Notes under the pieces: generated by a model
The model's database searches: none
The model's input: the letters and a program-made list of their open reading frames with translations, nothing else
What the model was told of the DNA's origin: nothing
Source of the DNA: Gammaproteobacteria bacterium
GTDB lineage: Bacteria > Pseudomonadota > Gammaproteobacteria > Natronospirales > REEB76
Direction of reading: 5' to 3'
DNA: 64,000 nucleotides
NCBI GenBank assembly: GCA_036383255.1
Contig: DASVOS010000013.1
Coordinates: 1-64,000, forward strand
Shown: positions 1 to 17,427 of the stretch, one piece after another
Layout: the number at the start of each line of letters is the position of its first letter
How positions within the stretch are numbered: position 1 is the first letter of the stretch
Translations under genes and position numbers: made by a program

Positions 1-109
1 GGGGAGGGGCTTGCGGTCTCGCGTCACTATCTGAAAAATCACGCCACGCTGGACTCGCGCGTCCGGCGAAACTAAATCAAGGCCGCTGTCGAGAGACAGC
101 GGCCTTTTT
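1..109 (+). repeat. Two-hairpin element, copy A
   Basis: First of three related ~110-nt intergenic elements (others at 5668-5779 and 16053-16143). It has a G-rich start (1-10), a block reading TCGCGTCA then CTGAAAAATC (18-40), hairpin 1 with CGCTGGAC at 47-54 pairing GTCCGGCG at 61-68 around a hexaloop, then hairpin 2 with a 12-bp stem (79-90 / 95-106), a GAGA tetraloop at 91-94 and a T-tract. Hairpin 2 on its own is a good intrinsic terminator for a + strand transcript coming from left of the window. The conserved upstream block and hairpin 1 are not needed for termination, so the unit may be a structured RNA ending in its own terminator. Confidence 0.7.
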
Positions 110-204
110 CTTTTCCATGCGTCGTGAATGGTTGGGTCAATGCTTTGCGCGCCGAAACCTCCGGGAAACCGGCACGACGCACCCTTATCCACCGAAGGAA
201 ATCC

Positions 205-1674
205 ATGCTGCCGGACTGGAACTACGTGCGCCAGGTGCAGGGCGAGCGGGTGTTGCTGGCGAATGCTTACCTGGACATGGCGAACCGCAGCCGCGCGGCG
301 CGGGACTATGCCCAGGCGCAGCAGCTCTACCAGAAGGTGGTGGGCATCCTGCCCCACGACAAGGTGGTATGGACGTGCCTCGGCGAGTGCTGGACTAACC
401 TCGCGAAGTACCCGCGTGCCCATGCCTGCTACAAGCAGGCGCTGGCCTGCGACCCCGCGTTCGTGCCGGCGCTGCTGGGGCTGGCGGACTGCACGACACT
501 GGCGAAGCGGCCGCGGCAGGCGCTCAAGCTCCTGAAGCGCGCGGAAGCGCTGCTGGACGACGATGCCACGATGCAGTGCCAGCTGCAGGTGGCACGAGGC
601 AACGCCCATTTCGCGATGCGGGAACATGCCAAGGCGGAGCGCGCTTACCGGCACGCCATGAAGCTCAGGCCGGACTACTACCCGCCCTACGGCAACCTGG
701 GGAACATCCTTGGCGCGCGCGGCGAGTTCGAGGAGGCTCGGCAGCTCTATGCCAAGGCCTACACCATGGGAAAAGACCCGGTGATGGGCATGAACCTCGG
801 CATCCTGGCGCTGCTCCTGGGTGACTACGAGGAGGGCTGGAAGTGGTATGGGACGCGGATCGAGGACCCGCGGCATTTGGAGTTCCAGCGGTTCGCCAGT
901 AGGGCGCTCTGGCGCGGTGAGACGGTCGACACTCTCTATGTATGTGGGGAGCAGGGGTTGGGGGACCTGGCGCACTTCATGCGCTACTTGCCGCTGGCAC
1001 GGCAGCGGGCCCGGCGCGTGGTGCTGGAAGTGACGCCGGGCTGGGAGAAGTTCGCGGAACTCTTCGGCTGCGCGGATGAGGTGGTGGCGCGGCGGGACGG
1101 TATGCCACCCACGGCGGAGTTCGATGCCTGGGTGCCGCTACTCAGCCTGCCGCCGGTGCTGGACCTGCCACAGCCCTGCCAGGCACCGAAGCCTCCTTAC
1201 CTGAAGGTGGAGGGACGTGCGCCGCGGGAGCGGCCGGCGATCGCGCTGTTCTGGCGAGGGAATCCCCAGCATCCCTGTGATCGCGACCGCTCGATCCCGC
1301 TGGAGGCGCTGGCGCCGCTGGTGCACTCACAGCCCAAGGCCCATTGGTTCACGTTGCACCCGGAGGAAGAGGCAGCGGAGGACCTCCGGCGCACGGGGCT
1401 GCCCATCCAGCGCTTCCCGGGATCCCTCACAGAGGCGACACGTCGGCTCGCGGAAGCAGACCTGGTGATCGGCGTGGATACGGCGCCGTTGCACATCGCC
1501 GGCGCGCTTGGGGTACCGGCCTGGTTCCTGCTGGCGCCCAACCCGGACTGGCGCTGGGGGCTCGAGGGCGAGCGTACTCCTTGGTATCCCCAGGCGCGGC
1601 TGTTCCGCAGCCGGATACCGCGCGAGTGGACTGGCGCGGTGGCACAGGTGAAAGAAGCACTGGGCAGGCTTTAG
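205..1674 (+). CDS. TPR protein with C-terminal glycosyltransferase-9-like domain
   Basis: 489 residues. Residues ~10-225 are helical repeats of TPR type (for example KYPRAHACYKQALACDP near residue 70). The C-terminal half resembles the GT-B fold of heptosyltransferase-like (GT9) proteins often fused to TPRs: GEQGLGDLAHFMRYL at ~248, ALFWRGNP at ~347 and VIGVDTAPLHIAGAL at ~422. Such proteins probably transfer a sugar to a surface or protein acceptor, but the substrate cannot be read here. ATG 205 is chosen because GAAGGAAAT lies just upstream; the in-frame ATG at 124 has no ribosome binding site. It lies downstream of element A, whose terminator isolates it from whatever is upstream. Confidence 0.75.
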   Translation: MLPDWNYVRQVQGERVLLANAYLDMANRSRAARDYAQAQQLYQKVVGILPHDKVVWTCLGECWTNLAKYPRAHACYKQALACDPAFVPALLGLADCTTLAKRPRQALKLLKRAEALLDDDATMQCQLQVARGNAHFAMREHAKAERAYRHAMKLRPDYYPPYGNLGNILGARGEFEEARQLYAKAYTMGKDPVMGMNLGILALLLGDYEEGWKWYGTRIEDPRHLEFQRFASRALWRGETVDTLYVCGEQGLGDLAHFMRYLPLARQRARRVVLEVTPGWEKFAELFGCADEVVARRDGMPPTAEFDAWVPLLSLPPVLDLPQPCQAPKPPYLKVEGRAPRERPAIALFWRGNPQHPCDRDRSIPLEALAPLVHSQPKAHWFTLHPEEEAAEDLRRTGLPIQRFPGSLTEATRRLAEADLVIGVDTAPLHIAGALGVPAWFLLAPNPDWRWGLEGERTPWYPQARLFRSRIPREWTGAVAQVKEALGRL

Positions 1675-2715: not shown

Positions 2716-2719
2716 AAGG

Positions 2720-3217: not shown

Positions 3218-3307
3218 GGATCGGCTCCGGCTGGATACCTAGGGACATCATACGTCTGATGCCACGTCGCCGTTGACGGCGTTACGTTGTGAAACAGGCA
3301 GGGGAAC

Positions 3308-3631: not shown

Positions 3632-3939
3632 GCTGACAGCGAAAAGAGCCGACGTCCACAACCGTTGTCCCGCCTCAGGTATTCACCTGCTTCGGCGGGG
3701 GAATATCCCGTAATCCCTGCATATCTGTCTTGAAAGAATTGACCCCGCCGCGTGCCTCCAATATATAACTGCTGATGGCGAGACTCCGCGCAGACGGAAC
3801 GCCAGTCCGATCGACGACAACATATTTTTGACCGGGTGATGGAACACCAGAGGATGGACGATCCATCGCGTGATCGACGCTGCGGGCTCCCCTGAGCCCG
3901 CGCGTGCGCCGTGCCCGGAAATACCAGGAAGCCGATGAC
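3632..3939. other. Intergenic, no gene seen
   Basis: 308 nt between the SdpI-like gene and the cytochrome gene. Short ORFs on the minus strand are shadows without ribosome binding sites or recognisable content. No strong sigma70 promoter or terminator was recognised. The segment is less GC-rich around 3770-3840 (ATATATAACTG, CAACATATTTTTG), which may mark the promoter of the cytochrome gene. Confidence 0.4.
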
Positions 3940-5658
3940 ATGGATAAGTCACGCACGCCCAGGGGCCTGACCCTTTCGCTCACGTTCGCCCTGCTGGCAG
4001 GAAGCTTCGGGTTCGCGGTGCACACAGCATCTGCGGCCGGCACCGGGAAGTTGCCGGTGGAGCGCCTGGGCAAACGCCTGTTCCGGGAGACCCGGTTCGG
4101 GCATTTCTTCATGGCGCATTCCAACGGCGACGTGAACACGGTGTTGAGCAGCGGCGAGCCTCTGGTGGACGCGGAGGCGAACTACACCGGAGACCCGGCC
4201 ACCTTGCCCGACCCGATGCAGGGCCAGGCGATCAACTGCATGCAGTGCCATCTCGGCCGGCAGGACGCGATGGTGGCGGGTGGCGGCAACCGCGCGTTCA
4301 CGGACTTCGCGGTACATTCGCCCATCCCACCGCGCGCGGACGACCCCGGGCATAACTACAACACCGCTCGCAATGCGACGAGCATCGTGGGTGCCCGGGT
4401 GCACGGCGATGCCGATCACATGCTGCATTGGGACGGGCAGTTCGGTTCCATGACGGAGCTGGTGGCGGGAACCCTGTCAGGCCGGAACTTCGGCTGGCTG
4501 GCGACGGAGCAGGCCCAGGCCCTGCATCAAGTGGCGGAAGTCATCCGGGGCGACGATGGGCACAATAGCCTCGCCCGTACGTTCAGCGGCGGCTGGCGTT
4601 ACCGGGCGCTGTTCCAGTGCAACCCACGGGTGCAGGCTGAGTACCGCCTGCCGGCACGGTTCTGCATGGATCTGAAGACAGCGACCGATGCGGAGATCGT
4701 GGGCGCCGTCGCGGGGGTGATGTCCGCCTATCTACAGAGAGTCGACTTCGCGCGAGACAGCATGGGGCGGCACACAGGTTCGCCCTATGACCAGTTCCTG
4801 ATAGCCAATCGACTGCCGCGTTCGCCCAAAGCGGGCGAGACCCCCCTGGAGTATGGGGCACGCCTGCTGAGGCGAGTAGAGGCGCTGTCCAACCCGAAAT
4901 TCGTCAACGACGGGCGCTTCAAGTACCACGGCCAGCGGCCGTTCGCCTTCGGCTCCCACGAACTGCACGGGCTCGTCATGTTCCTGCGCAGGCCGGCGGG
5001 CCCCGTGATCACGCCGGAGGAGGTCGCGCAGAGCGGCATCGGCAACTGCGTGGCCTGCCATGCCCCACCGGAGTTCACGGATTCCATGATGCACAATACG
5101 GGCGCGACGCAGTTCGAATATGACGACATACACGGGGAAGGAAGTTTCGCGAACCTGACGATACCGGACCTGGCGCAACGCGAGGCTGACCCGGACGCTT
5201 ACCTGCCGGTGACCGCCGCGCATCCGAATGCCGCGGAGCCGTTCCGCAGGCCGGCGGACGCCTCTGCGCCCGGGCAGGCCGATCTCGGGGTATGGAACAT
5301 CTTCGCGAACCCGGATTTCGCCAGCCGGCAGGCTTCCTTGCGTGAGTTCCTGTGTGCGATAGACACCAGGCGGTTCGAAGACTGCGGCAGCACCGACGCG
5401 GAGCTGCTGGACAGAGCGATCGGGGTGTTCAGGACGCACACGGTGCGGGACATGGGAGATTCAGGCCCGTACATGCACAGCGGACACTTCAAGACCCTGG
5501 ATGACGTGGCGATGTTCTATCACCACGCGGGTGAGCACGCGCGCGACGGGCTGCTGCGCAACGCGGATCCCGAGATACAGAACATCGCGCTGGAGCACCC
5601 CGACCTGCCGGATCTGGAGGCGTTCATGGCCTCGCTGGACGAGGATTTCCAGGAGTGA
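3940..5658 (+). CDS. Diheme cytochrome c peroxidase-like protein
   Basis: 572 residues. Signal peptide (HTASA then AGTG, cleavage ~residue 32). Two c-type heme sites: CMQCH at ~residue 99 and CVACH at ~370, the spacing and order of the bacterial diheme peroxidase/MauG superfamily. DSGPYMHSGHFKTLDDVAMF near the C-terminus matches the conserved end of that family. It should be an exported periplasmic redox enzyme needing the cytochrome c maturation system; whether it reduces peroxide or oxidises an organic substrate cannot be decided. ATG 3940 is preceded by GGAAG. The family is usually 330-450 residues, so this is a long member. Element B lies 9 nt past the stop. Confidence 0.75.
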   Translation: MDKSRTPRGLTLSLTFALLAGSFGFAVHTASAAGTGKLPVERLGKRLFRETRFGHFFMAHSNGDVNTVLSSGEPLVDAEANYTGDPATLPDPMQGQAINCMQCHLGRQDAMVAGGGNRAFTDFAVHSPIPPRADDPGHNYNTARNATSIVGARVHGDADHMLHWDGQFGSMTELVAGTLSGRNFGWLATEQAQALHQVAEVIRGDDGHNSLARTFSGGWRYRALFQCNPRVQAEYRLPARFCMDLKTATDAEIVGAVAGVMSAYLQRVDFARDSMGRHTGSPYDQFLIANRLPRSPKAGETPLEYGARLLRRVEALSNPKFVNDGRFKYHGQRPFAFGSHELHGLVMFLRRPAGPVITPEEVAQSGIGNCVACHAPPEFTDSMMHNTGATQFEYDDIHGEGSFANLTIPDLAQREADPDAYLPVTAAHPNAAEPFRRPADASAPGQADLGVWNIFANPDFASRQASLREFLCAIDTRRFEDCGSTDAELLDRAIGVFRTHTVRDMGDSGPYMHSGHFKTLDDVAMFYHHAGEHARDGLLRNADPEIQNIALEHPDLPDLEAFMASLDEDFQE

Positions 5659-5667
5659 GCTGACAAC

Positions 5668-5779
5668 CGGGGGAGGGGGTTGTGGCCTCGCGTCAGATTT
5701 GAAAAAATCCCTTTACGCTGGATATGCATGTCCAGCACGGATACCAAGGCCGCTCAGGAGACTGAGCGGCCTTTTCTTT
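5668..5779 (+). repeat. Two-hairpin element, copy B
   Basis: Most regular copy. It has a G-rich start (5669-5680), TCGCGTCA at 5688-5695, TTGAAAAAATCC at 5699-5711, and hairpin 1 with GCTGGAT at 5717-5723 pairing GTCCAGC at 5730-5736 around the palindromic hexaloop ATGCAT. Hairpin 2 has a 12-bp stem (5746-5757 / 5762-5773), GAGA tetraloop 5758-5761 and a T-tract. Relative to copy A, the upper stem of hairpin 2 changes from GCTGTC/GACAGC to GCTCAG/CTGAGC, so pairing is kept while sequence changes. It follows the cytochrome gene and precedes a tiny ORF at 5803. Confidence 0.75.
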
Positions 5780-5802
5780 TCCCCATTAACAGGAGACCAG
5801 GC

Positions 5803-6021
5803 ATGAAGATGGGCAAGAACGATCCCAGAAGCTCCATGGGCAAGTCCGTGAAGGGCAAGCTGCCGGTGAACGTGACGGGGCGCAACCCCATCAAGTCTGC
5901 GAGCCCGGCTGAGACAGCCTGCGTGGGCGAGTACTGCCCGCCGAAGGACCGCAACCTGAAGCAGGCTCCGGCAAAGGACCCGGTGAGCGATATCGAGCGC
6001 GATCGCGCGCTCGAAGACTGA
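5803..6021 (+). CDS. Small basic protein of unknown function
   Basis: 72 residues, lysine- and proline-rich at the N-terminus with a CVGEYCPPK segment in the middle and an acidic end. ATG 5803 has AGGAGA eight nucleotides upstream, which is the main support for this start. It begins just after the terminator of element B and abuts the next ORF. No family recognised; the small size and phage-like tight packing suggest an accessory phage gene, which is inference. Confidence 0.45.
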   Translation: MKMGKNDPRSSMGKSVKGKLPVNVTGRNPIKSASPAETACVGEYCPPKDRNLKQAPAKDPVSDIERDRALED

Positions 6022-6222
6022 ATGCGCTTCGCTTGGCAGACCTACCGGCGCGTGCTGCAGGAAGGTTTCGATGCCTACAAGCTGGCGGGGCCGCTCGCGC
6101 AGTGTCCCTACGGCTCGGATGAGCGCAACGGCATCTGGGTGTTCGCCAAGCAGAAGGCCAAACAGGGCCTGAGCTTCACCCAGACCTGCCGGGCGTTCAG
6201 GCGGATGGAAGGCCTGAGCTGA
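6022..6222 (+). CDS. Small protein of unknown function
   Basis: 66 residues starting directly after the stop of the preceding ORF (TGA then ATG), so probably translationally coupled. It contains two cysteines, is rich in aromatic and basic residues (FAWQTYRRVLQEGFDAYKL at the N-terminus) and has no signal peptide or membrane segment. Not recognised. It is convergent with the lipoprotein gene at 6230-7003, leaving 7 nt between the stops. Confidence 0.4.
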   Translation: MRFAWQTYRRVLQEGFDAYKLAGPLAQCPYGSDERNGIWVFAKQKAKQGLSFTQTCRAFRRMEGLS

Positions 6223-6229
6223 CAGGACT

Positions 6230-7003
6230 TCAGTCGACCTTCACCTCGGCGACGAAGGCGGAATCCCCGCTGAAGCCACCGATGTAGTAGTAGGTCCCGG
6301 GCGCGCCCTTGAAATAGCCGTAAGTGTCGTAGACGCTCTCATAGGCCAAGCCCTCGAAGGTCTTCCCGCACACCGGCAGCGGCCCGGAGCTGGTCAGCAC
6401 CATCGAGAACAGGTCCTCGCCGGGCTTGAGCTGGTCAAGGCGGCCCGCGAGGCTGCAGCCGAACACGTCGTTGCCGCTGATGCGGCCACCGGCCTCCACC
6501 TGCAAAGTCACCGCGTATGGCGTAGGGGTGATGTAGTAGCCGCTCCACTGGCCGGCGACGAGGCCCGGCTCATCGCCGAAGGCTTCCAGCGGATGGAGTT
6601 CGAGCGGTCCTGAGCCCTCATCATTCTGAAGGCTTCCCGTGATGCCGCTATCCAGTACGGTGGCCTGGAGCCGGTAGGAGGCGCTGCTCCGTCCCGTGGT
6701 GAAGGCGTAACCGATGGGCGCGAAGGCCTGCACATCCCCCTGGATGTCGAAGCCGCCATCGAAACGAGGGAGGCGGTACATGATGCCGTGATTGTCGAAG
6801 AAGAAGGCGATGCCATCCTTGCGGATGAACGCGACGGCGGGAAGTGAAAAGGCCGCCCCGGGCGCGGCATAGGTGCCGCTCCAGCGTCCTTCCACCAAGA
6901 CCTCCGTGCTATCGCTGTCCTGACCCTGGTTGCAGGCGGCGAGGAACGCCATGGATGCCGCAAACAGGACCCCTAGGAGAGCACGGGATTCCCTTCCCTG
7001 CAT
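6230..7003 (-). CDS. Lipoprotein, paralogue of the 7218-8018 product
   Basis: 257 residues with a lipobox (MAFLAAC, Cys ~24). The mature part is built of beta-type stretches: WSGTYAAPG, IRKDGIAFFFDNHGIMYRLP and a second half repeating WSGYYITP. This W-G-Y ... G-AFF-D--G--Y-LP pattern is shared with the neighbouring lipoprotein, so the two are paralogues. ATG 7003 is preferred over the upstream ATG 7024 because GGGAAG lies just before it. No known enzyme motif; probably anchored in the outer membrane or inner membrane outer leaflet. Confidence 0.6.
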   Translation of the reverse strand: MQGRESRALLGVLFAASMAFLAACNQGQDSDSTEVLVEGRWSGTYAAPGAAFSLPAVAFIRKDGIAFFFDNHGIMYRLPRFDGGFDIQGDVQAFAPIGYAFTTGRSSASYRLQATVLDSGITGSLQNDEGSGPLELHPLEAFGDEPGLVAGQWSGYYITPTPYAVTLQVEAGGRISGNDVFGCSLAGRLDQLKPGEDLFSMVLTSSGPLPVCGKTFEGLAYESVYDTYGYFKGAPGTYYYIGGFSGDSAFVAEVKVD

Positions 7004-7217
7004 GTGCACTTCCCTTTGTGGCACATGACGATCCGAGCTCGAACGAAAGTATAGACCAGAACTTAGGGATTAAATTCCCAAAGTAAATGTACCCGTGTTC
7101 CATGTCTGAACGGTGATATGTCGGAAAGGTGAGAGATTCGTCACCCGATAAGGTGCCGGACCCAGGGAGAGTGAAGCGAGCATGCGCCGGAGCTAGCGCA
7201 TGCAAAGAGCAGTAGCG

Positions 7218-8018
7218 TCAGAACCTCATTTCCGCGGCGAAGGCGCCCTGGGAACTGGAGACGCCGACATAGAGATAATGGCCGGCGGCGTTGCCGAACA
7301 GGTCACCGAGGTCTTCGTCGGTCACGAACCCGAGGCCCGTCATGTCGCCGGCACAGGCTCCGGAAGCACCGCTGCTCTTGACGGTGACTGCGACCAAGAA
7401 GGGCGCTGACTGGATCTTGGTGAGAGTGCCCACCAGGTTGCATCCGTTCGCGTCAGTGCCGGCGAATACGCCGCTGGACTGGACGGTGAGTGCCACTGCG
7501 GCGCTGCCGGACCCAAAATAGAAGCCCTGCATGTTGCCGGCGAGATCTGCAATACCCATCACCCCCGTGGATTGGGTGGCGAGCGGCGTGAGGGCGAAAC
7601 TGCCGGTCTCACCGTTGCCGGAGAAGGTGCCGGTGATGGACGTATCCGAGGCAGTGCCGGTGAGACTGAAATCTTCCTTGCTGTGACCGTCCGGGAAGGG
7701 GGTGCCGAAGGCGGCATACGCGGTGAGCGTGCCGCTCAGAGTGGCGCTGCCAGTCAGCTTGGGCAACACGTAGATGTTCCCGAACTCGTCATAGAAGAAG
7801 GCGTAACCACCCTGAGCGATTGCAGCGATGATCGGGGTGGAACCGGATTGCCCATTGATGGTGTAGGACCCGAACCAGACTCCCTGCACCGCAGCGGTAG
7901 TGGGTGGCGGGTTGCCGCCGCCTCCGCCTCCGCCATAAGCACCGGAGGTGCCGCCACCACAGGCTACGAGCAGTGTGGCGAGAAAGGCGAGGCTCAGGCG
8001 GCGGATATATCGATACAC
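7218..8018 (-). CDS. Glycine-rich lipoprotein, paralogue of the 6230-7003 product
   Basis: 266 residues from GTG 8018, which has GGAGAG at good spacing (GTG 8024 would overlap that site). Lipobox LLVACGGG, then a poly-glycine linker and PPPTT, then beta-type sequence with WFGSYTING, GGYAFFYDEFGNIYVLP and repeated GTLT/GTFSG elements. The shared layout with the preceding lipoprotein points to a tandem duplication. Three late cysteines could form disulfides. Function unknown. Its upstream region is shared with the divergent phage terminase genes. Confidence 0.6.
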   Translation of the reverse strand: MYRYIRRLSLAFLATLLVACGGGTSGAYGGGGGGGNPPPTTAAVQGVWFGSYTINGQSGSTPIIAAIAQGGYAFFYDEFGNIYVLPKLTGSATLSGTLTAYAAFGTPFPDGHSKEDFSLTGTASDTSITGTFSGNGETGSFALTPLATQSTGVMGIADLAGNMQGFYFGSGSAAVALTVQSSGVFAGTDANGCNLVGTLTKIQSAPFLVAVTVKSSGASGACAGDMTGLGFVTDEDLGDLFGNAAGHYLYVGVSSSQGAFAAEMRF

Positions 8019-8119
8019 GGTCACTCTCCACGGGGATCCGATCCCTTGTTTACTTTACCGCATCCACGCCTGTCATACGCATGCGCCTGCCATGGGTACT
8101 CGCGCATGGCTGCGAAATA

Positions 8120-8128
8120 CGACATATC
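8120..8128 (+). promoter_or_regulatory. CGACATATC motif, possible operator
   Basis: The 9-mer CGACATATC occurs here, at 14741-14749, and inverted at 7115-7123; a diverged form ACGACATTAACG is at 13434-13445. All four are intergenic and all lie upstream of minus-strand cargo genes (two lipoproteins, two WYL-like proteins). A shared regulatory site is inferred from position only. Confidence 0.3.
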
Positions 8129-8139
8129 AACGGTGGCAG

Positions 8140-8406
8140 ATGACGAAGAAGACAGGCAAGACCACGCGAGCGCGGGCCGAGACGCAGGGGATGCGGGAGA
8201 TCGCCCAGCAGCACGCGGTACACGCCTTAAAGAAGCTGGTGACGCTCATAGACAGCAAAAACGAACGGGTAGCGCTCTCGGCAGCACAGACGGTGCTGGA
8301 CCGGGCCCACGGCAAGGTGGCCCAGGCCATGAACCTTAAAGGTCCCGAGGGCGGGCTGACGGTGAAGATCATGCGCTTCAGAGAGGAAGACGGACATGCA
8401 GAGTGA
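8140..8406 (+). CDS. Terminase small subunit-like protein
   Basis: 88 residues, basic N-terminus (MTKKTGKTTRARAETQGM), an amphipathic helical core (HALKKLVTLIDSKNERVALSA is the central helix region) and AAQTVLDRAHGKVAQAM, a pattern common in small phage proteins encoded immediately before large terminase and usually annotated as small terminase. It would recognise phage DNA and recruit the packaging motor. Ribosome binding site weak (GGTGGCAG). The stop overlaps the next start by 11 nt, and it is first of the + strand late cluster. Confidence 0.5.
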   Translation: MTKKTGKTTRARAETQGMREIAQQHAVHALKKLVTLIDSKNERVALSAAQTVLDRAHGKVAQAMNLKGPEGGLTVKIMRFREEDGHAE

Positions 8407-8680
8407 GCAAGAGATCGAGGCCTGTGGCTGGTGCAAGGGCGACGGCAAGGACCATGCGACGCTCGGGATGGCGCGGGTGCGGGACTGTCCCCGCTGCGCC
8501 GGCAGCGGGAGGGTGTACGTGACGAGCCGTGAGTCCACCACGGGCCGGCGGCGGGTATACAAAGGCCCCGTACCGAAGCCAGCCGTGCTCGCCGCGAGAC
8601 AGCAACAGGAGCTCACCGAGGCGCTGCAGAAGCCCAAGAACCGCAGCCGGAGGAAGGATGGCCGAAGTCACGCTGCCTAA
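8396..8680 (+). CDS. DnaJ-type zinc-finger small phage protein
   Basis: 94 residues with two CxxCxGxG-type knuckles, CGWCKGDG (~residue 10) and CPRCAGSG (~residue 31), arranged like half of the DnaJ zinc domain, followed by a basic, helical tail. A structural Zn2+ site is expected. It overlaps the small terminase gene by 11 nt and the large terminase gene by 23 nt, so all three are probably co-translated. It could assist terminase folding or DNA binding; that is inference. Confidence 0.55.
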   Translation: MQSEQEIEACGWCKGDGKDHATLGMARVRDCPRCAGSGRVYVTSRESTTGRRRVYKGPVPKPAVLAARQQQELTEALQKPKNRSRRKDGRSHAA

Positions 8681-9956
8681 CGGCTGGCGGCCACGCGCGC
8701 ACCAGCGGCGGCTGTGGGATTACCTGGAAGGCGGCGGCAAGCGCGCGGTGGCGGTGTGGCACCGGCGCGCGGGCAAGGATTCCACCGCCATCAATTGGAC
8801 GGCGGTGGCGGCGCATCAGCGCGTCGGCACTTACTGGCACATGCTGCCGACGGCTACCCAGGGGCGGATGGTGGTGTGGGAGGGGCGCGACGGCGAAGGC
8901 CGGCGCCTCATAGACCAGGCGTTTCCACCCGGCCTCAGGCTGAGCGAACGCAACGACCGCATGACGATGGAGTTGAAGTGTGGATCAGTATGGCAAGTGG
9001 TGGGATCGGACAATTACGACCGACTGGTGGGAGCCAACCCCGTCGGGGTGGTGTTTAGCGAGTGGAGTCTCACCGATCCGCGTGCTTGGGACTATGTGCG
9101 ACCGATTCTCGCTCAGAACGGCGGATGGGCGGTTTTTGTCTATACCCCGCGCGGGAAGAACCACGGGTCCGAGCTCTATGACATCGCCCGTCATCATGGA
9201 GACTGGTTCGCTGAGAAGCTAGGCGTCGAGGATACCGGCATCCTGAAGCCGGAAGTGGTGGCGGCGGAACGGGCCAGCGGCATGAGCGAGGCGCTGGTGC
9301 AGCAGGAGTACTACTGCTCCTTCGAGGCGGCGAGCGAGGGCAGCTACTACGGCAAGCTGATGGAACAGGCCGAACAGGCGGGAAGGGTGACGCGGGTGCC
9401 GTGGCAGCCGGAACTCGCGGTGGACACCTGGTGGGACCTCGGTATCGGCGACAGCACGGCGGTCTGGTTCAGCCAGCGGACGGGACTCGAGCACCACTTC
9501 ATCGATTACTACGAGTGCAGCGGCGAAGGCCTCGCGCATTACGCCAAGGTGCTGCAGGAGAAGGGCTACGTGTACGGCTCGCACTGGGCGCCCCATGACA
9601 TCGAGGCCCGGGAGCTGGGTACCGGCAAGTCGCGCCTCGAGGTGGCGAAGGGGCTGGGACTGCATTTCAAGGTGGCGCCGCGGCTGTCGGTGGAGGACGG
9701 CATCGAGGCGGTGCGCAACCTCCTGCCGCGGGCCTGGTTCGACGCAGAGCGCTGCTGCCAGGGGCTGCGCGCGCTCAAGAGCTATCACCGGGACTTCAAC
9801 GAGCGGCGGCAGGCTTACCTCCCGCATCCGGTGCATGACTGGGCGTCGCACGGAGCGGACGCATTCCGCACCGGCGCGGTGACAGTAAAGAAGGCAGCTC
9901 CTGTCACCTCTGTGCCTCGACGATCGAGGCACAGAGGCTCATTCATGGGGCGGTGA
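8658..9956 (+). CDS. Phage terminase large subunit
   Basis: 432 residues from ATG 8658 with AGGAAGG immediately upstream. ATPase part: Walker A-like HRRAGKDS (residues ~35-42), Walker B region VVFSEW (~130), and YTPRGKNH (~163), the coupling motif of large terminases. Nuclease part: DLGIGDSTA (~260), HDIEARELG (~315) and SHGADAFR (~413) carry acidic residues expected to bind catalytic metals. It is the packaging motor that cuts concatemeric DNA and pumps it through the portal. Length is normal for the family. The 3' end of the gene contains a 14-bp perfect inverted repeat. Confidence 0.9.
   Translation: MAEVTLPNGWRPRAHQRRLWDYLEGGGKRAVAVWHRRAGKDSTAINWTAVAAHQRVGTYWHMLPTATQGRMVVWEGRDGEGRRLIDQAFPPGLRLSERNDRMTMELKCGSVWQVVGSDNYDRLVGANPVGVVFSEWSLTDPRAWDYVRPILAQNGGWAVFVYTPRGKNHGSELYDIARHHGDWFAEKLGVEDTGILKPEVVAAERASGMSEALVQQEYYCSFEAASEGSYYGKLMEQAEQAGRVTRVPWQPELAVDTWWDLGIGDSTAVWFSQRTGLEHHFIDYYECSGEGLAHYAKVLQEKGYVYGSHWAPHDIEARELGTGKSRLEVAKGLGLHFKVAPRLSVEDGIEAVRNLLPRAWFDAERCCQGLRALKSYHRDFNERRQAYLPHPVHDWASHGADAFRTGAVTVKKAAPVTSVPRRSRHRGSFMGR
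9907..9937 (+). repeat. 14-bp inverted repeat at the end of the terminase gene
   Basis: CCTCTGTGCCTCGA (9907-9920) and its exact complement (9924-9937) around a 3-nt loop, inside the last 20 codons of the large terminase gene. No T-tract follows, so it is not a standard intrinsic terminator; RNA processing or 3'-end protection is possible. Confidence 0.6.
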
Positions 9957-10086
9957 CGATTTGACCCCGGACGGCCTTATGTCGCCTGCGTTCCGGCAAT
10001 TGGCTCAATTGTGATTCACGGCACTTTAGGCGCGGCCTCAAAAGGCGATAAGGAAGCTAACCATCAGAGACAAGGAAGGCGACACC

Positions 10087-10299
10087 ATGGCCCAGGTGAT
10101 CAAACTCGTGCCGGCAGGGACATTGCCGGCGAAAGATGTCCTGGCGGACGCGGAATCCGTCGGCCTCACCGACGCGGTGGTGCTCGGCTGGGACAAGGCC
10201 GGGAACATGTATTTCAAGAGCTCTTATGCGGATGGCCCGAACGTGCTGTGGCTCCTGGAGCAGGCGCGGGACGCGGTGCTGGAAGCGGGGCGAGAGTAA
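10087..10299 (+). CDS. Small phage protein of unknown function
   Basis: 70 residues. ATG 10087 follows AAGGAAGG at good spacing. The sequence is compact, alpha/beta in look: an N-terminal strand (MAQVIKLVPAG), then DAVVLGWDKAGNMYFKSS, then a C-terminal helix. Similar 60-70 residue proteins are frequent in late modules of proteobacterial phages but have no assigned role. About 130 nt separate it from terminase. Confidence 0.5.
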   Translation: MAQVIKLVPAGTLPAKDVLADAESVGLTDAVVLGWDKAGNMYFKSSYADGPNVLWLLEQARDAVLEAGRE

Positions 10300-10326
10300 G
10301 TTAGCCGATTACGTGTGAAGCAAGAA

Positions 10327-10364
10327 CCCACGCCGGAGCCGGGTACAAGCGGCTCCGGCGTGGG
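10327..10364. terminator. 14-bp hairpin between convergent genes
   Basis: CCCACGCCGGAGCC (10327-10340) pairs perfectly with 10351-10364; loop of 10 nt. It lies between the small phage gene (+) and the GFA gene (-), the place for a bidirectional terminator, but there is no T-tract on either side, so strength is uncertain. Confidence 0.45.
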
Positions 10365-10378
10365 CCATCAACGATCCA

Positions 10379-10813
10379 TCACTCAGCGACAGTCGCGCCC
10401 GAACCACCCATCTCCTTGGGCAGGTCCTTCATCTTGGGCAGGCCGTCATGCATGTGCAGCCGGGTCTCCTGGTAGTTCACGTGGACGCCGGCCTGGTATG
10501 GAAAGCCCGGGATGACCGCCGCGTAGACGTCCACCAGGTTCCAGTGCGGATGATCCGTGAAGAGGTGGCCGCCACAGGTCTTGCACCACTTGCGGGCGCT
10601 ACGGGGAGTCTTGTTGAACGTGCCGATGTTGTCGGCACCGCGGGTGATCTTCAGCGCTTCGGGGTTCCAGAGCGTGAAGGCATTGACCGGGCCCGCCGAC
10701 CAATGACGGCATGATTCGCAATGGCAATATCCCGCGCCGGCGGGCTCGCCGGCGACGGTGAACTGCACCGCGCCACAAAAACAGCTGCCTGCATAGCTCT
10801 TTGCTTCGCTCAT
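10379..10813 (-). CDS. GFA-family zinc protein
   Basis: 144 residues. The cysteine pattern of the glutathione-dependent formaldehyde-activating (GFA/Mss4-like) fold is complete: GSCFCGAVQF (~residue 10), CHCESC (~30) and WCKTCGG (~78), giving two zinc sites. Members bind glutathione adducts or small aldehydes; many are uncharacterised. ATG 10813 follows GAGGGAT. It runs against the surrounding phage genes and is separated from them by hairpins, as expected for a cargo (moron) gene carrying its own expression signals. Confidence 0.75.
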   Translation of the reverse strand: MSEAKSYAGSCFCGAVQFTVAGEPAGAGYCHCESCRHWSAGPVNAFTLWNPEALKITRGADNIGTFNKTPRSARKWCKTCGGHLFTDHPHWNLVDVYAAVIPGFPYQAGVHVNYQETRLHMHDGLPKMKDLPKEMGGSGATVAE

Positions 10814-11128
10814 GGTCTCGATCCCTCTGTGGTGATGGACATTCAGGTGAAAGTGCCTGCCGGTGACGGCTGCACACCGATTAAGGAGGCCGCAGACCCC
10901 TCCGCGGCAGACGGTATTGTCGCCACACGCATGCCGGGACTTAGAAAAAGTCGTCCTCGCTGACCAAAACCGGGGCAAGTGGGATCAAGAGCCAGTCGGC
11001 TTGACTGGTGGAGCCGGCAAACCCCGCATGGCATGGGCCTCTGTGACCCATAACAGAGGCCAAGGAGAGCTTATTCCCGGGCGGCGCATGCCGCCCAAAC
11101 CTGCAGATACACAACGTCGGGGGATGAG
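10814..11128. other. Leader of the portal gene with hairpins
   Basis: 315 nt without a convincing gene. Three inverted repeats precede the portal start: CCAGTC/GACTGG near 10990-11010, a 9-bp stem GGCCTCTGT/ACAGAGGCC (11036-11044 / 11053-11061), and GGGCGGC/GCCGCCC with loop GCAT (11079-11096). The promoter of the divergent GFA gene should also lie here. No T-tracts follow, so the hairpins are more likely part of a structured mRNA leader than terminators. Confidence 0.4.
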
Positions 11129-13129
11129 ATGGATGTAGAAGAAGCACAACGGCTGCTGGCCAGGTCCGTAGCCAAGCGCCGGCAGTGGCGGCAGGACGCG
11201 CGCGAGGACTTCGCATTCGTGGCGGGCCACCAGTGGAGCGAGGAGGACGCCTCGCAGATGGACCAGGCGCTGAGGCCCCGCACCACCTTCAACAACATCG
11301 CGCCGGTGGCGGATGCCATCGCAGGGCACGAGGTGGCGAACCGGCAGGAGGTGACCTACCTACCGCGCCAGGCGGGTAGCGCCGGAGTGAACGAAGTGCT
11401 GACGGCGGCGGCGGAGTGGGTGCGTGAGGAGTGCGACGCGGAGCACGAGGAATCCGATGCCTTCTACGACGCGACGGTGTGCGGCGAGGGCTGGACCCAG
11501 ACGGAACTGGAATACGACGTGGACCTGGATGGCCGCATCGACATCTCGCGGGTGGACCCGCTGGAGATGGACTTGGATCCGGCGAGCACGCGCAAGAACC
11601 ACGCGGATGCCAAATGGGTCTGCCGCTCCAAGGTGTATGACCGCCGGGAGGCGCAGGAGCTGTGGCCTGAAGGCGAATTCACGCCTGCCAACGCGATGCG
11701 CGAGGCGGACAGCCCGGTGGACGTGATCGCCGCAGCATTCTACCGGGCCGACTCAGGCAGCGGCGGGCGGGGCGGCGGTGGCGACAAGGTGATCGTGCAC
11801 GATTTCCAATGGTGGGAGCACGAACCCGTATACCGCATACCGGTCCAGCAGCTCGGCCCGGAGCGTGCGTTCCTGATGGTGAACACGCCGGATGAGGATG
11901 GCAGCTTCCTGCTCCCCGCCCACAAGCTTCAGCCCGACGCCCAGGGCCTGATCACACTGGATTCCGATGAGTACGGGAAGGTCGAAGCTCTACTCGAGGG
12001 CGTGCAGGTGCTTAAGCAGAAGCGCCGCCGCTATCAGCGCATGTACTTCAGCGGCGACGAGCTGCTGGAGAAGAAGGAGACGCCGACCGGCGGCAGCTTC
12101 ACCTATAAGGCCATGACGGCGAAGCGGGACCGCAAGCAGAAATGCTGGTATGGCATCGTGCGAGCCATGAAGGACCCGCAGCGCTGGGCCAACAAGTTCA
12201 TGTCATCGATGCTGGAGATCATCGCCACCTCCGGCAAGGGAGGCATCCTCTATGAGCCGGATGCCTTCCTGAACACCCGCGAAGCGGAGGAGGACTGGGC
12301 CGATCCCTCGCGCAACGTGGCCATGACCGAGGGGGCGATCTCCGCCAACAAGATCATGCCGCGGCCGGTGAACAACATGCCACCGCAGATGATGGCGCTG
12401 ATGCAGTACTGCGAACAGTCGCTGAAAGCGGTGGCAGGGGTGAACCCGGAGGTGATGGGCCTCTCCCAGGCGCTGGATCCCTCCGGCGTGATGGAAGAAG
12501 GACGCCGGCAGAGCGGGCTCAACATGCTGGCTTATCTCTTCGACGGCCTGCGCCGTTACCGCAAGGAACAGGGGAGGCTGCTGCTAACGATGATCCGCCG
12601 CTTCATCCCCGAAGGGCGGCTGGTGCGGGTAGTGGGCCAGGACGGCATCCAGTACGTGCCGCTGGTCTATGACGACACGGCGGTGGAATACGACGTGATC
12701 GTGGACGAGGCGCCCACGGCACCGAACGTGAAACAACGCACCTGGGAAGCCTTCACGCTGCTGGCGGGGCAGGTGCCGCAGCTCGTGACGCCGCAGGCCG
12801 TGCTGATCGCACTGGATTATTCCCCCTTCCCGCAGGCGATGGTGCAGAAGCTCAAGGCGGCCGCGGCCGGCGCACTGGCGCCACCTCCGGCGCCGCCACC
12901 GCCGGATCCGGTACTACAGGCGCAAGCCGCGGAACTGATGGCCTCGGCGCAACTCAAGGGCGCGCAAGCCCAGCACATCCAGCGGCAGGATGCGCTGCAG
13001 GTGCCGGTGGAGACGCTGAAGGCCAGGAGCGCAGAAGCGCGAGCCCAGGCGGACACGCTAGGCGCCGTGGCGGGGATGCACAAGGCGGCGGCTGAGATCG
13101 TCCGCGCGCAGTCTCAAAGCCGGGAGTAG
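11129..13129 (+). CDS. Phage portal protein, P22-like
   Basis: 666 residues, close to the size of podoviral P22-type portals. The N-terminal region (WRQDAREDFAFVAGHQWSE ... RPRTTFNNIAPVADAIAGHE) is the typical start of this family, with NNI/NRQEV around residues 55-75. The C-terminal ~120 residues are Ala/Gln-rich and helical after a proline run, matching the barrel-type extension of P22 portal. It forms the dodecameric channel at the capsid vertex and docks terminase and adaptor. ATG 11129 follows GGGATGAG. Its 3' end overlaps the minus-strand WYL-like gene by 16 nt. Confidence 0.85.
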   Translation: MDVEEAQRLLARSVAKRRQWRQDAREDFAFVAGHQWSEEDASQMDQALRPRTTFNNIAPVADAIAGHEVANRQEVTYLPRQAGSAGVNEVLTAAAEWVREECDAEHEESDAFYDATVCGEGWTQTELEYDVDLDGRIDISRVDPLEMDLDPASTRKNHADAKWVCRSKVYDRREAQELWPEGEFTPANAMREADSPVDVIAAAFYRADSGSGGRGGGGDKVIVHDFQWWEHEPVYRIPVQQLGPERAFLMVNTPDEDGSFLLPAHKLQPDAQGLITLDSDEYGKVEALLEGVQVLKQKRRRYQRMYFSGDELLEKKETPTGGSFTYKAMTAKRDRKQKCWYGIVRAMKDPQRWANKFMSSMLEIIATSGKGGILYEPDAFLNTREAEEDWADPSRNVAMTEGAISANKIMPRPVNNMPPQMMALMQYCEQSLKAVAGVNPEVMGLSQALDPSGVMEEGRRQSGLNMLAYLFDGLRRYRKEQGRLLLTMIRRFIPEGRLVRVVGQDGIQYVPLVYDDTAVEYDVIVDEAPTAPNVKQRTWEAFTLLAGQVPQLVTPQAVLIALDYSPFPQAMVQKLKAAAAGALAPPPAPPPPDPVLQAQAAELMASAQLKGAQAQHIQRQDALQVPVETLKARSAEARAQADTLGAVAGMHKAAAEIVRAQSQSRE

Positions 13130-13407
13130 ACGGCCCGGAAGGTGCGGTCACCGGGGTTATAGGCGGCGCGCGGCTTGCGAAAGCGGGTGGACAGGACCCT
13201 GAGATCCCCGACCTTCGTGAGGTCGAACAGCTTCCAGCCGCTGTGTTCGCCCGAGAGACTGCCGCCCGATACCTGGTAGGCGCTCAGTAGCTCATGGCCG
13301 TGACTGTCATGGCCGTAGATATGAGGCTCGACGATGCGGGCAGTGCCGCCGTAATCGAGCTTCAGGAGGTGGTGTGCCTCTATGGCATCACAGATGGCTT
13401 GCTGCAT
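13114..13407 (-). CDS. WYL-domain-like single-domain protein 1
   Basis: 97 residues: an N-terminal helix (AICDAIEAHHLLKL), then DYGG, RIVEPHIYGHDSHGHELLSAY, GWKLFDLTKV and an Arg-rich end. This is the pattern of small stand-alone WYL-like proteins (ligand-sensing part only) seen in Proteobacteria; no helix-turn-helix is present. It is clearly homologous to the product of 14356-14670 (shared RIVEP..YG.D..G and LL.AYQ). ATG 13407 is chosen by alignment with that paralogue; ATG 13440 is an alternative. The gene overlaps the portal 3' end and is divergent from the scaffold gene. Ligand unknown. Confidence 0.6.
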   Translation of the reverse strand: MQQAICDAIEAHHLLKLDYGGTARIVEPHIYGHDSHGHELLSAYQVSGGSLSGEHSGWKLFDLTKVGDLRVLSTRFRKPRAAYNPGDRTFRAVYSRL

Positions 13408-13462
13408 GGCCCGGACCCGACCTGTCGCCACATACGACATTAACGACAAACCCGGAGAAACG

Positions 13463-14359
13463 ATGAGCGCGATGTCACAGTTGAACGAAGCCGAATCCCG
13501 ATTCTTCGAGAGCAAGGGCCAAGACGTGGCGCCCTCGCTCTCGGAGCCTTCACCTGAGCCGGTCGTGGAGAGCCGCGGCGCGGATGCGGAAGCCGCCGAA
13601 GCCACGCCGGATGGCCCACGGACCGACAACCCAGGCAAGCCGGAGCGGGAAGGCCGATTCGTACCCTTGCAGGCGTTGCAGGAGGAGCGCGCGGAGAAGA
13701 GGCAGCTCCGCGAAGAGCTCAGGCAGTACCGGGAATGGCAGGCGCAGCTCGCCCAACGGCTGCAGCAGATGCCGGCGGGGCGCGAGCCGCAGGTACCGGA
13801 TCCGCAGACGCAGCCGCTGGACTACATCAACCACGTGCTGGGCAACATGCAGGCGAGCACCGCGGAACTTCAACACTGGCGCCTGCAACAGGAGCAGGCG
13901 GCCCAAGAGCAGGCGGCCGTGCAGCAGCACGCCTCCTGGGCCACGGAGCAGGAACGGGAGTTCGCGAAGCAGCAGCCGGAATACCATGAGGCCTATCGCT
14001 TCGCCACCCAAGCGCGGGACAAGGAGTTGCAGAGCCTGGGCTATTCAGCCGCCGAGCGGACGGCGATCCTGCGGATGAACACGGCGGAGGTCATCAACAA
14101 CGCGATCCAGCAAGGACACAACCCAGCCGAACTGGTGTGGGAATACGCGCGGGCGCGAGGTTACATGCCGAAGGGCGGACGCGGGAGCAGTTCGGAGGGC
14201 CAGGCGAAGATCGCCGCGGGCCTGCAGGCTGCCGGTGCCAAGCTGAACCAGGGCGGCGCCACTGGAGAAGGCGAGATGAACGCCCGCGACCTGGCCGGGA
14301 TCACCGACCCCGAGGAATTCGAAAAAGCCTGGAAGCGGGTGTTCGGGAAGAAGCGTTAG
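13463..14359 (+). CDS. Probable capsid scaffolding protein
   Basis: 298 residues, no cysteine or hydrophobic core, strongly charged. Residues ~60-100 form an Arg/Glu-rich helix (LQEERAEKRQLREELRQYR), residues ~105-185 are Gln/Ala-rich helical, and a globular-like end carries DLAGITDPEEFEKAWKRVFG. Composition, length and position between portal and capsid genes fit a scaffolding protein that directs procapsid assembly. ATG 13463 follows GGAGAAACG. Its stop overlaps the second WYL-like gene by 4 nt. Confidence 0.65.
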   Translation: MSAMSQLNEAESRFFESKGQDVAPSLSEPSPEPVVESRGADAEAAEATPDGPRTDNPGKPEREGRFVPLQALQEERAEKRQLREELRQYREWQAQLAQRLQQMPAGREPQVPDPQTQPLDYINHVLGNMQASTAELQHWRLQQEQAAQEQAAVQQHASWATEQEREFAKQQPEYHEAYRFATQARDKELQSLGYSAAERTAILRMNTAEVINNAIQQGHNPAELVWEYARARGYMPKGGRGSSSEGQAKIAAGLQAAGAKLNQGGATGEGEMNARDLAGITDPEEFEKAWKRVFGKKR

Positions 14360-14829: not shown

Positions 14830-15492
14830 ATGAACCCCTATTTCGACGATGATCAGTTGCAGGACACATTTGGGGGTGTCATAGATCCGCCCCGCAAGCG
14901 GCCCGGACTCGCTGATGCGTTGTTGCGGATGAACCTTCCGACCATGGAGCCTGGATTACCGCTTCCGATAAACACAGGCATACCAGGGGGTACCGTGGCC
15001 TTCAGCAAGGCGCTGGCAGGTTTGCGGTCCAGCGCAACGGCCGCGCCCGCAGCCGCCGATGAGGCTGCCGCTCCGGTGCGTGCCGGCATCTTCGGATCCG
15101 CGGTATCCAAGAGCAAGTTCGACTTGGACAAGGCTACCCAGTATCTGGATGAGCACGCATTGCCCGCCTATGACAAGGAAAAAGCCGGCCATTGTGCCAG
15201 GGCAGTGCGGGTAGCCATCGGAGCAGGTGGGCGCGAGGTGGCTAACACCGAGGAGGCAAAGGACTATGGGCCAAAACTGGTGGATGCCGGGTATACGCGA
15301 TTGGATGCCAATACCCGCAAGAACTATACTCCCCAGAAAGGGGACGTAATCATCTATCCCGCGCTGCTTCCCGATCATGAGCACGGACACATGGAGATGT
15401 ACGATGGCAAGCAATGCGTCTCCGATTTCAAGCAGAAGGGACCGATCCCGTACGGCGATGGCACTCTCCATTACGAGATATATCGCCCTTAG
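14830..15492 (+). CDS. CHAP/NlpC-P60-like peptidoglycan peptidase
   Basis: 220 residues in two parts. Residues 1-90 are low-complexity and Pro/Ala-rich. Residues ~100-220 form a papain-like amidase: catalytic Cys in GHCARAVRVAIGAGG (~residue 119), a central KDYGPKLVDAGY, and PQKGDVIIYP...HGHMEMYDG, whose His (~187) would be the base, ending in SDFKQKGPIPYG. Related domains occur in endolysins and in type VI secretion amidase effectors. No signal peptide. It overlaps the next gene, which encodes a periplasmic protein, by 35 nt. The true endolysin sits elsewhere (24963-25487), so this is a virion-associated lysin or an antibacterial effector. Confidence 0.6.
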   Translation: MNPYFDDDQLQDTFGGVIDPPRKRPGLADALLRMNLPTMEPGLPLPINTGIPGGTVAFSKALAGLRSSATAAPAAADEAAAPVRAGIFGSAVSKSKFDLDKATQYLDEHALPAYDKEKAGHCARAVRVAIGAGGREVANTEEAKDYGPKLVDAGYTRLDANTRKNYTPQKGDVIIYPALLPDHEHGHMEMYDGKQCVSDFKQKGPIPYGDGTLHYEIYRP

Positions 15493-16078
15493 CCTGCTGT
15501 GCATCGGGGTATCCGCGGCTCAGGCGGCTGAACCAAAATCCCCGCAAGCCACCGCACAGGCACAGAACGCCGAGCTGCAATCGGCCCATGATTTCGTCCA
15601 GGGCTTCTACGATTGGTACGTGCAGCAGGCCGAACAGGAGAAGGATGGATGGCCAAGCATGACTGCAGCGCTAAAGAACGAACGCTGGCCTTTCAGCGAT
15701 GAAATCAAGAAGGCGCTTCAGGCCGATACGGAAGCGCAGGCAAAGGTGGAGGGTTATATCGTTGGAATAGACTTCGACCCCTTCCTGAATGCACAAGATA
15801 CCTGTTTCCCCTATAAGGCAGGCAAGGCCATACACGCGGGAAACCGGTACCAAGTCGAGGTATTCAGTAACTGTGCGGGCTCTCACCCTGAGCGAGCAAC
15901 GGTCATTCCGGTGGTGGATAAGCGCAATGGAACATGGCTGTTTGTGAACTTCATCTATCCGGACGACACCACGACTGACCTGCTGTCAACGTTGCAGGCC
16001 CTCAAGAAAGACCGGGAAGAACATCCCAAGCCGCCGTCCGAGGACCAGGGGGGGCTAGACGGTCCGCGTCATTCCTGA
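15458..16078 (+). CDS. Periplasmic DUF3828-type protein, possible immunity protein
   Basis: 206 residues with signal peptide (IALSLLCIGVSAAQA, cleavage near residue 23). FVQGFYDWYV (~residue 47) and GIDFDPFLNAQDT (~residue 105) match the DUF3828 pattern. Two cysteines in the mature part (DTCFPY and NCAGS) may form a disulfide. The alternative start ATG 15404 has a better GGAG site but would give a long Arg-rich leader. Position directly downstream of, and overlapping, a peptidoglycan peptidase gene suggests it protects the producing cell's periplasm. The end of the gene runs into element C. Confidence 0.55.
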   Translation: MALSITRYIALSLLCIGVSAAQAAEPKSPQATAQAQNAELQSAHDFVQGFYDWYVQQAEQEKDGWPSMTAALKNERWPFSDEIKKALQADTEAQAKVEGYIVGIDFDPFLNAQDTCFPYKAGKAIHAGNRYQVEVFSNCAGSHPERATVIPVVDKRNGTWLFVNFIYPDDTTTDLLSTLQALKKDREEHPKPPSEDQGGLDGPRHS

Positions 16079-16143
16079 AATGATCCCACTACGCTGGATG
16101 TGCATGCATCCACGGAAGCCGCCGGGAGACCGAGCGGCTTTTT
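16053..16143 (+). repeat. Two-hairpin element, copy C
   Basis: Third copy, overlapping the last codons of the preceding gene. CGCGTCATTCCTGAAATGATCC (16066-16087, first half inside the gene) is followed by hairpin 1, TGGATG (16095-16100) with CATCCA (16107-16112) around TGCATG. Hairpin 2 has AAGCCGC + CGG (16116-16125), GAGA loop (16126-16129), CCG, one bulged A (16133) and GCGGCTT (16134-16140), then T-tract. Stem bases differ from copies A and B but pairing and the GAGA loop are retained. It should terminate the upstream transcript before the capsid gene. Confidence 0.7.
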
Positions 16144-16158
16144 GTCCCCGCTGCCACT

Positions 16159-16374: not shown

Positions 16375-17427
16375 GTGGCTAACACCAATTTCACGGTCAA
16401 CGATCCGCTCGCAGTAAAACTGTGGGCGAAGAAACTCGCGGTCCAGGCGATCCAGCAGACTTGGTTCCGCAACTTCATCTCGGACGACGGCAACAACGTC
16501 ATCTATCTGCTGGACGACGCGGAGAAGTCCGCCGGGGACACGGTGAACGTGGGGCTGCGGACGCAGCTCGCGGGCGCCGGCATCCAGGGCGACGGCACGC
16601 TGGAGGGCCAAGAGGAGGCGCTCACCACCTACGCGGACAAGCTGCTCATCGACCAGCTGCGCCACGCGGTGAACGTGGGTGGCCGCATGACCCAGCAGAG
16701 GGTGCCGTTCGAGCTCCGTGAGGAAGCGCGCATGGGCCTGCAGGACTGGTGGGCGGCGAGGTTCGACCTCAGCTTCTTCAACCAGCTCTGCGGCTACACG
16801 GTGCAGACGGACAGCCGCTACACGGGTAACAACGCCTGCACGGCCCCGACCCGCACCATCCTCCCCGGTGGACACACGGCGGAGAGCCAGCTCACCAGCA
16901 CGGATACCTTCTCGCTGGCGCTGGTAGATACCGCGGTCGAACGCGCGTACCTCAACAACCCGTACCTGATCCGGCCGATCCGTATCAAGGGCGAGGACAA
17001 GTACGTGTGCTTCATCCACCCGAGCCAGGTGACGGACCTGCGCACCTCCACCTCGACCGGCCAGTGGCTGGACATCGAGAAGGCGGCGATGACGGGCGGC
17101 GAGGTCTCGGACAACCCGATCTTCACGGGAAGCCTCGGCGAGTACAACGGGGTGATCCTGCACAAGGCTTACCGCGTGTCGCAGGCGGTGAACTCAGGAG
17201 CGGCCATGGCCAACACCTACCGCGCCGTGTTCGCAGGCGCCCAGGCGGGCGCCCTGGCGTTCGGCCGGGAGGAGGGCAAGGAGCAGTTCACCTGGTCCGA
17301 GGAACTCTTCGACTACGGGAACATGCTGGGTGTCTCGGCGGGGTCCATCTTCGGCATCAAGAAGCTGGTGTTCAACAGCAACGACTTCGGCACCCAAGTG
17401 ATCAGCACTTATGCCGCGGCGCACTGA
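16375..17427 (+). CDS. Major capsid protein, N4-gp56 family
   Basis: 350 residues from a GTG codon with GGAGG upstream. The sequence follows the N4-gp56 family of HK97-fold capsid proteins: NFTVNDPLAVKLWAKKL at the N-terminus, GDTVNVGLRTQLAGAGIQG (~residue 55), RMTQQRVPFELREEAR (~107), YVCFIHPSQVTDLR (~207) and the conserved end SAGSIFGIKKLVFN. It builds the icosahedral head. It is followed after 16 nt by a probable decoration protein, both transcribed from the structured leader and ended by the terminator at 17923. Confidence 0.85.
   Translation: MANTNFTVNDPLAVKLWAKKLAVQAIQQTWFRNFISDDGNNVIYLLDDAEKSAGDTVNVGLRTQLAGAGIQGDGTLEGQEEALTTYADKLLIDQLRHAVNVGGRMTQQRVPFELREEARMGLQDWWAARFDLSFFNQLCGYTVQTDSRYTGNNACTAPTRTILPGGHTAESQLTSTDTFSLALVDTAVERAYLNNPYLIRPIRIKGEDKYVCFIHPSQVTDLRTSTSTGQWLDIEKAAMTGGEVSDNPIFTGSLGEYNGVILHKAYRVSQAVNSGAAMANTYRAVFAGAQAGALAFGREEGKEQFTWSEELFDYGNMLGVSAGSIFGIKKLVFNSNDFGTQVISTYAAAH

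Follow-up and report, generated by a model that had tools for sequence, protein, structure and literature searches.

The window analysed here is a stretch of 64,000 nucleotides that begins at base 1 of contig C13, in a host genome of 2.59 Mb and 18 contigs. Its first 26 kb are a prophage of the P22-portal type, with genes for a P22-type portal, a Phage_capsid_3 capsid, TerL, a DNA-ejection-like protein and a GH108 lysozyme; the capsid gene was found in none of 55 host relatives. Within this region, an element of ~110 bp occurs in three full-length copies, all on the + strand (1-110, 5670-5781 and 16046-16145). In an alignment of 13 copies, three from the window and ten from phage relatives, it separates into a 5' part of 45 columns with promoter-like determinants and a part from column 46 onward that folds as a hairpin (hairpin 1) and an intrinsic terminator. 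The copies and the surrounding genes are listed below; the promoter halves rest on alignment, a PWM and the lack of conserved pairing, the predicted leader RNAs on folding and covariation.

1..45, + strand: predicted promoter half of copy 1, with GGGGAGGGG at 1-9, -35-like TTGCGG at 11-16, GCGTCA at 21-26 (-25 to -20) and -10 AAAAAT at 34-39
46..110, + strand: predicted leader RNA of copy 1 from A46, with -10-like CACGCT at 45-50, hairpin 1 at 47-68, terminator hairpin with GAGA loop at 79-106, and T tract
205..1674, + strand: TPR/glycosyltransferase-9-like phage gene behind copy 1, with homologues on 33 phage contigs
5670..5714, + strand: predicted promoter half of copy 2, with -35-like TTGTGG at 5680-5685, GCGTCA at 5690-5695 and extended -10 TGA AAAAAT (-10 at 5703-5708)
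5715..5781, + strand: predicted leader RNA of copy 2 from A5715, with -10-like TACGCT at 5714-5719, hairpin 1 at 5717-5736 and terminator at 5746-5773
5803..6222, + strand: two small phage genes behind copy 2 (5803-6021; 6022-6222, RMF-like), which precede TerS/TerL in this order in phage contig L117 as well
8143..14359, + strand: packaging genes that follow copy 2 (TerS-like, TerL, P22-type portal, scaffold-position protein)
14830..16078, + strand: cassette of cargo genes ahead of copy 3 (CHAP/amidase-like, 14830-15492; secreted immunity-like protein, ~15395-16078)
16046..16090, + strand: predicted promoter half of copy 3, with -35 TAGACG at 16056-16061, GCGTCA at 16066-16071 and -10 AATGAT at 16079-16084
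16091..16145, + strand: predicted leader RNA of copy 3 from A16091, with -10-like TACGCT at 16090-16095, hairpin 1 at 16092-16114 and terminator with GAGA loop at 16115-16141
16375..17427, + strand: gene for the major capsid protein, behind copy 3

Searches of the 2.59-Mb genome with blastn, a covariance model and a pattern agree on a copy number of three, all in the window. The initial annotation had placed three copies on the + strand at near-identical coordinates, which is borne out with no others in the genome. The covariance model recovers them with E-values of 4e-32, 2e-29 and 2e-20, the next genome matches being bare terminators, and a 33-nt core pattern allowing ≤ 3 mismatches gave three forward matches genome-wide versus none for the reversed-pattern control. 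The blocks described as shared (a G-rich lead-in, CGCGTCA, TGAAA..ATC, ACGCTGGA and a GAGA terminator loop) are all present in the window copies. Copy 1 starts at base 1 of C13, and a comparison of the contig ends in the genome revealed no partner contig for this left end. In 55 host relatives and 369 class genomes, matches resemble bare terminators (18-35 bits; the best ones were read as alignments). A host repeat or REP-like element was rejected, given three copies per 2.59 Mb and none in same-family genomes. A pattern match from the genome collection in L058 (Rhizobiales), which has neither the G-rich lead-in nor the terminator, was considered chance.

The element is a phage feature. A capsid-seeded IMG/VR search yielded 51 metagenomic phage contigs, and all eight with ≥ 91% capsid identity (L062-L069) carry the element, with one or two copies each and ten in total (48-77 bits, E-values down to 1e-19 with the three-copy covariance model); the number observed per contig is thus 1-3. 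No copy was found in the ~43 phage contigs with ≤ 76% capsid identity, the portal- and terminase-seeded sets gave no further ones, and pattern scans of viral collections refound at most the same contigs. The close phages match the whole element and not the terminator hairpin alone, and the match in genomes outside the phage clade is restricted to the terminator. The claim that the element is longer than a simple terminator holds in the eight closest contigs as well. No Rfam family scored above the gathering threshold in the window or the eight relatives; Trp_leader, trpB and BSR0739 matched below threshold. The remark that no known family came to mind is correct as to Rfam, but the layout matches that of Q/AlpA-type antitermination promoters.

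Every copy lies upstream of, and on the same strand as, a late or cargo module: the TPR gene, the packaging block and the capsid gene in the window, and capsid or cargo genes in the relatives. Copies precede cargo genes in L063, L068 and L069, and cassettes are flanked by two copies in L068 and L069. Because the gene before the element is divergent in L064 and L067, as is one ORF in L062, the element is not merely the 3' terminator of these genes. A plain terminator of the upstream gene was rejected on account of the divergent neighbors in L064 and L067 and of conservation that extends 45 nt upstream of the hairpins.

Exchangeable cargo is located between scaffold and capsid (window 14830-16078; L062, L063, L068 and L069) and consists of genes for CHAP-like or NC-motif hydrolase-like proteins, each followed by one for an immunity-like protein of secreted or membrane type; neither Pfam nor NCBIfam gave a convincing match for the cargo proteins. 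Two unrelated cargo protein types have an N-terminal DDxxxxGLAxxLL-like motif in common, which also occurs in the protein encoded at 22979-23665 in the window; its position beside the ejection protein hints at packaging into the virion. The 6022-6222 gene, which lies past copy 2 and ahead of the terminase genes, encodes a phage-borne protein resembling ribosome modulation factor (Pfam RMF, E 0.004, short of the cut-off). Between copies 1 and 2, positions 1738-5658 form a non-phage-like island (DUF4412, DUF4124, cytochrome-c-peroxidase-like), the genes of which occur in none of the phage contigs retrieved. For the last of these, at 3940-5658, a paralogue (56%) exists on contig C10, and 19 related genomes gave no match; a blast match beside the C10 paralogue was dismissed as chance. 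On the - strand before the terminase genes (6230-8024), there are two paralogous lipoprotein genes that look like mobile moron genes, since their relative is placed elsewhere in L066 (2620-3447). Two small related proteins are encoded on the - strand beside the scaffold gene (13114-13638 and 14356-14670); they are conserved in L062, L063 and L065 and have no Pfam match.

The capsid 5' leader (window 16159-16374; L062-L069) has its own conserved small hairpins before the ribosome site (CACTGCGTSAAGTG; GCCTTCCGACATAGGC; CTCTCCGACATGAG), with loops of the form TCCGnnAn, and similar hairpins are found in the distant phages L072 and L150, both of which are without the element. Long palindromic inserts occur in intergenic regions (L065 1303-1480; L066 511-800; L064 1480-1600; window 16240-16320). 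Those of L065 and L066 have the ends CTCAnCAGGAAC..GTTCCTGATGAG and come after a truncated element copy that is cut just past GCGTC/CCGTC.

The part of the element from column 46 onward is structured. In the model-fitted alignment, which is biased towards structure, 91% of cells pair and both-sided changes occur in 9 of 19 pairs (3/7 in hairpin 1, 6/12 in the terminator). None of 500 shuffles reached as high a covariation score, and slid controls scored far lower. The proposal that paired stem changes reflect selection on RNA structure is upheld for both hairpins when the relatives are added, hairpin 1 included with its three supporting pairs, but not for hairpin 1 in the window trio, where both-sided changes within the two hairpins are confined to the terminator stem. 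The hexaloop ascribed to hairpin 1 is seen only in copy 1, the fold of the other two copies having a tetraloop, and the GAGA terminator loop of the three window copies gives way to GCAA, GTGA or triloops in the relatives. The terminator stem begins at ~+34, and in 13/13 copies the hairpin and its T tract are located ahead of any gene start. The view of the whole ~110 nt as RNA is not supported: the first 45 nt have no conserved pairing and bear promoter-like determinants, so that the predicted RNA measures only ~60-65 nt.

These 45 nt upstream of the predicted start are the best-conserved part of the element. Columns 1-45 align without gaps, are near-invariant (consensus GGGGAGGGGCTAGACnnnnnGCGTSAnnTYTGAAARAAT) and have no predicted consensus structure. 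With a sigma70 PWM based on approximate E. coli hexamer frequencies, its values and the architecture both being our own and picked after the alignment was seen, the top placement over the 13 copies has the -35 at column 11, a 17-bp spacer and the -10 at column 34 (mean 7.8 bits, lowest copy 5.7; runner-up placement 2.6); since the copies are homologous, this consistency is not independent evidence. Column 34 (3.95) and column 45 (3.87) are the only positions at which the -10 hexamer scores above zero. In the first of these, A34, A35, A38 and T39 are invariant, and most copies have the T at -15 and G at -14 of an extended -10. The predicted start is column 46, an invariant A preceded by T or C. 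The hexamers are weak, with ~4/6 consensus matches each; a strict consensus promoter scan of positions 1-18000 of the window returned no promoter, and the score of a single copy is not above that of shuffles. Columns 1-45 are probably a weak sigma70-type promoter; a sigma54 promoter was rejected, as the GG..GC spacing is 11 rather than 10.

Two further DNA features accompany these hexamers. GCGTSA, at -25 to -20 between the -35 and the -10, has C-24, G-23, T-22 and A-20 invariant in all 13 copies and is a conserved candidate factor-binding site. Another hexamer of -10 type, TAnnnT, stands at column 45 at a distance of 11 bp from the -10; A46 and T50 do not vary in it. It is followed by GGA and constitutes a putative pause element, much like that of lambda pR'. 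T50 also lies in the 5' arm of hairpin 1, where its partner alternates between A and G, as expected if this arm doubles as a DNA signal.

In the lambda pR' record, the promoter reads TTGACT-17-TAAATT, and AACGAT follows 12 bp downstream of the -10 (11 bp in the element) and precedes GGG (GGA in the element). The lambdoid pR'/tR'/Q systems (lambda, 21, 82) share with the predicted layout of the element a sigma70 promoter with 17-bp spacer, a protein site between the hexamers, a -10-like pause element near the start and a short leader that ends at an intrinsic terminator before the late genes. The 5'-terminal hairpin, the G-rich upstream block and the 1-3 copies per contig are features of the element, whereas lambdoid pR'-type late promoters are usually present in one copy per phage. 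Neither hairpin 1 nor the GGGGAGGGG lead-in is known to be required in Q systems. The site itself differs, TGAGCA in Q21 versus GCGTSA here; Q21 subsite 1 has its C at -21 (PMC6606751) and hence spans -25 to -20.

The AlpA promoters of Pseudomonas aeruginosa (PalpB and PPA0807) have a loading site (GGGACG rather than GCGTSA) at exactly -25 to -20, between the -35 and the -10 (PMC9371919; PMC7969949), and at the PA0807 promoter a terminator begins 26 bp past the start (PMC7969949), compared with ~+34 in the element. One factor serves two separate operons there, and the element is proposed to serve several modules. The descriptions consulted report no conserved leader hairpin for AlpA promoters. 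The genes under AlpA control are chromosomal and serve programmed lysis, whereas the element belongs to a structural prophage with cargo. In the Caulobacter GTA, GafZ has its site (ZBE) between the -35 and the -10 (PMC11150451); the phage-like structural cluster, the degenerate -35 and, as proposed for the element, the terminator bypass are also shared, but there is one GafZ target promoter, the terminator comes after the first gene, and IHF and GafY are needed. StxS, a real sRNA, is the pR'-tR' leader from the late promoter of Stx phages (review PMC7873438). It resembles the predicted leader in being a short RNA that arises in lysogeny when transcription from a late promoter stops early; StxS is a proven Hfq-dependent regulator, whereas the element's leader is a predicted RNA. 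In the distant phage L097 (8228-8320), a strong promoter (TTGACA-16-TATAGT) with an immediate intrinsic terminator precedes the capsid gene; the sequence is unrelated, and this is possibly the same control in another lineage.

The coincidence of distances with AlpA, Q21 and PA0807 is the main argument for antitermination. The proposed membership in the Q/AlpA type is supported by five sequence features, namely sigma70 hexamers with 17-bp spacing, a site in the spacer, a -10-like element, a terminator and late genes downstream. Based on the conservation, placement, structure and gene context observed in the copies, we consider it fairly probable that the element is a multi-copy late promoter-leader-terminator module of the Q/AlpA type under processive antitermination, of which promoter activity, pause, loading factor and antitermination itself are the inferred components. 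Against this reading, a search of the genome for the Q families PF06530 and PF03589 gave nothing above cut-off, although the contig starts at copy 1, where the antiterminator gene would be expected. Each late-gene control module would start with a weak sigma70-type promoter. A Q/AlpA-like antiterminator would load at the DNA site at -25 to -20, aided by the -10-like pause element just past the start. The ~60-nt leader RNA would open with a hairpin and end at the intrinsic terminator ahead of late or cargo genes. In the default state, polymerase would stop after the short leader; with the antiterminator present, it would be modified at the promoter-proximal pause, pass the terminator and transcribe the downstream module. 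With several copies present, one factor would jointly activate separate late modules together with exchangeable cassettes of cargo.

A multi-copy sRNA gene, in which promoter and terminator are its own and the ~60-nt two-hairpin transcript acts in trans or binds protein, is in our judgment unlikely as the main function. The predicted RNA does start at a hairpin and end in a terminator in nearly all copies, the hairpin-1 pairs covary, and StxS offers a precedent (PMC7873438). However, the linker and terminator, the would-be seed region, are the least conserved part of the element and drift between phages, and placement on the same strand upstream of late and cargo genes is needless for action in trans. 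The two readings may hold together, as an RNA role of the leader, like that of StxS, can be compatible with the antitermination model.

Somewhat less probable again is a plain insulator or relay that terminates incoming transcription and adds an ordinary promoter, without dedicated antiterminator, downstream expression being due to leaky readthrough or other promoters. It would fit with the good sigma70 promoters without terminator 70-170 bp before the capsid gene in L071, L072, L082 and L103, and with the negative genome search for the two Q families. This explanation, however, does not say why GCGTSA in the spacer and GGGGAGGGG upstream are conserved, and a simple relay would silence its own promoter because the terminator lies downstream of the predicted start.

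We regard as improbable that the element is mainly a homology block for exchange, duplication and loss of cargo cassettes. Cassettes between two copies (L069, L068) and truncated copies beside the palindromic inserts of L065 and L066 are in line with such a recombination joint, as are terminator halves that are alike within a phage as if homogenised (similarity 0.67 within vs 0.50 between phages, permutation p = 0.006). Yet neither a recombinase nearby nor a fixed crossover point was seen, the conserved features fit transcription signals better, and recombination may be a by-product of repetition. The promoter halves are equally similar within and between phages (0.68 vs 0.68); one trans-acting factor that reads all promoter halves, together with local homogenisation of the remainder, would explain this contrast. 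A promoter for a non-sigma70 or phage-encoded polymerase or sigma factor reading GGGGAGGGG and GCGTCA, followed by a terminator, is very improbable: GGGGAGGGG is among the best-conserved parts, and no function is known for such a block in Q promoters, but the invariant columns fit a sigma70 -10 (A at -11, A at -8, T at -7) and no phage RNAP or sigma gene was seen in the first 26 kb of the window.

Returning to the antitermination model, a wider version can be put forward only tentatively: dispersed, self-homogenising Q-type modules would act both as the switch of a late and cargo regulon and as a homology joint for swaps of toxin/immunity-like cassettes, with the leader hairpin adding an RNA-level function. 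Single switches of the pR' type are known; one virus scattering several copies, also before exchangeable cargo, is unusual. If the antitermination model is correct, processive antitermination would not always be a single late switch per phage, as the whole switch would be distributed before separate modules, and newly acquired cargo would come under late control at once. It would also provide an outside test, in uncultivated bacteria, of the AlpA/Q rule (site at -25 to -20, pause element just past the start, terminator within ~35 nt), and would predict a new antiterminator family.
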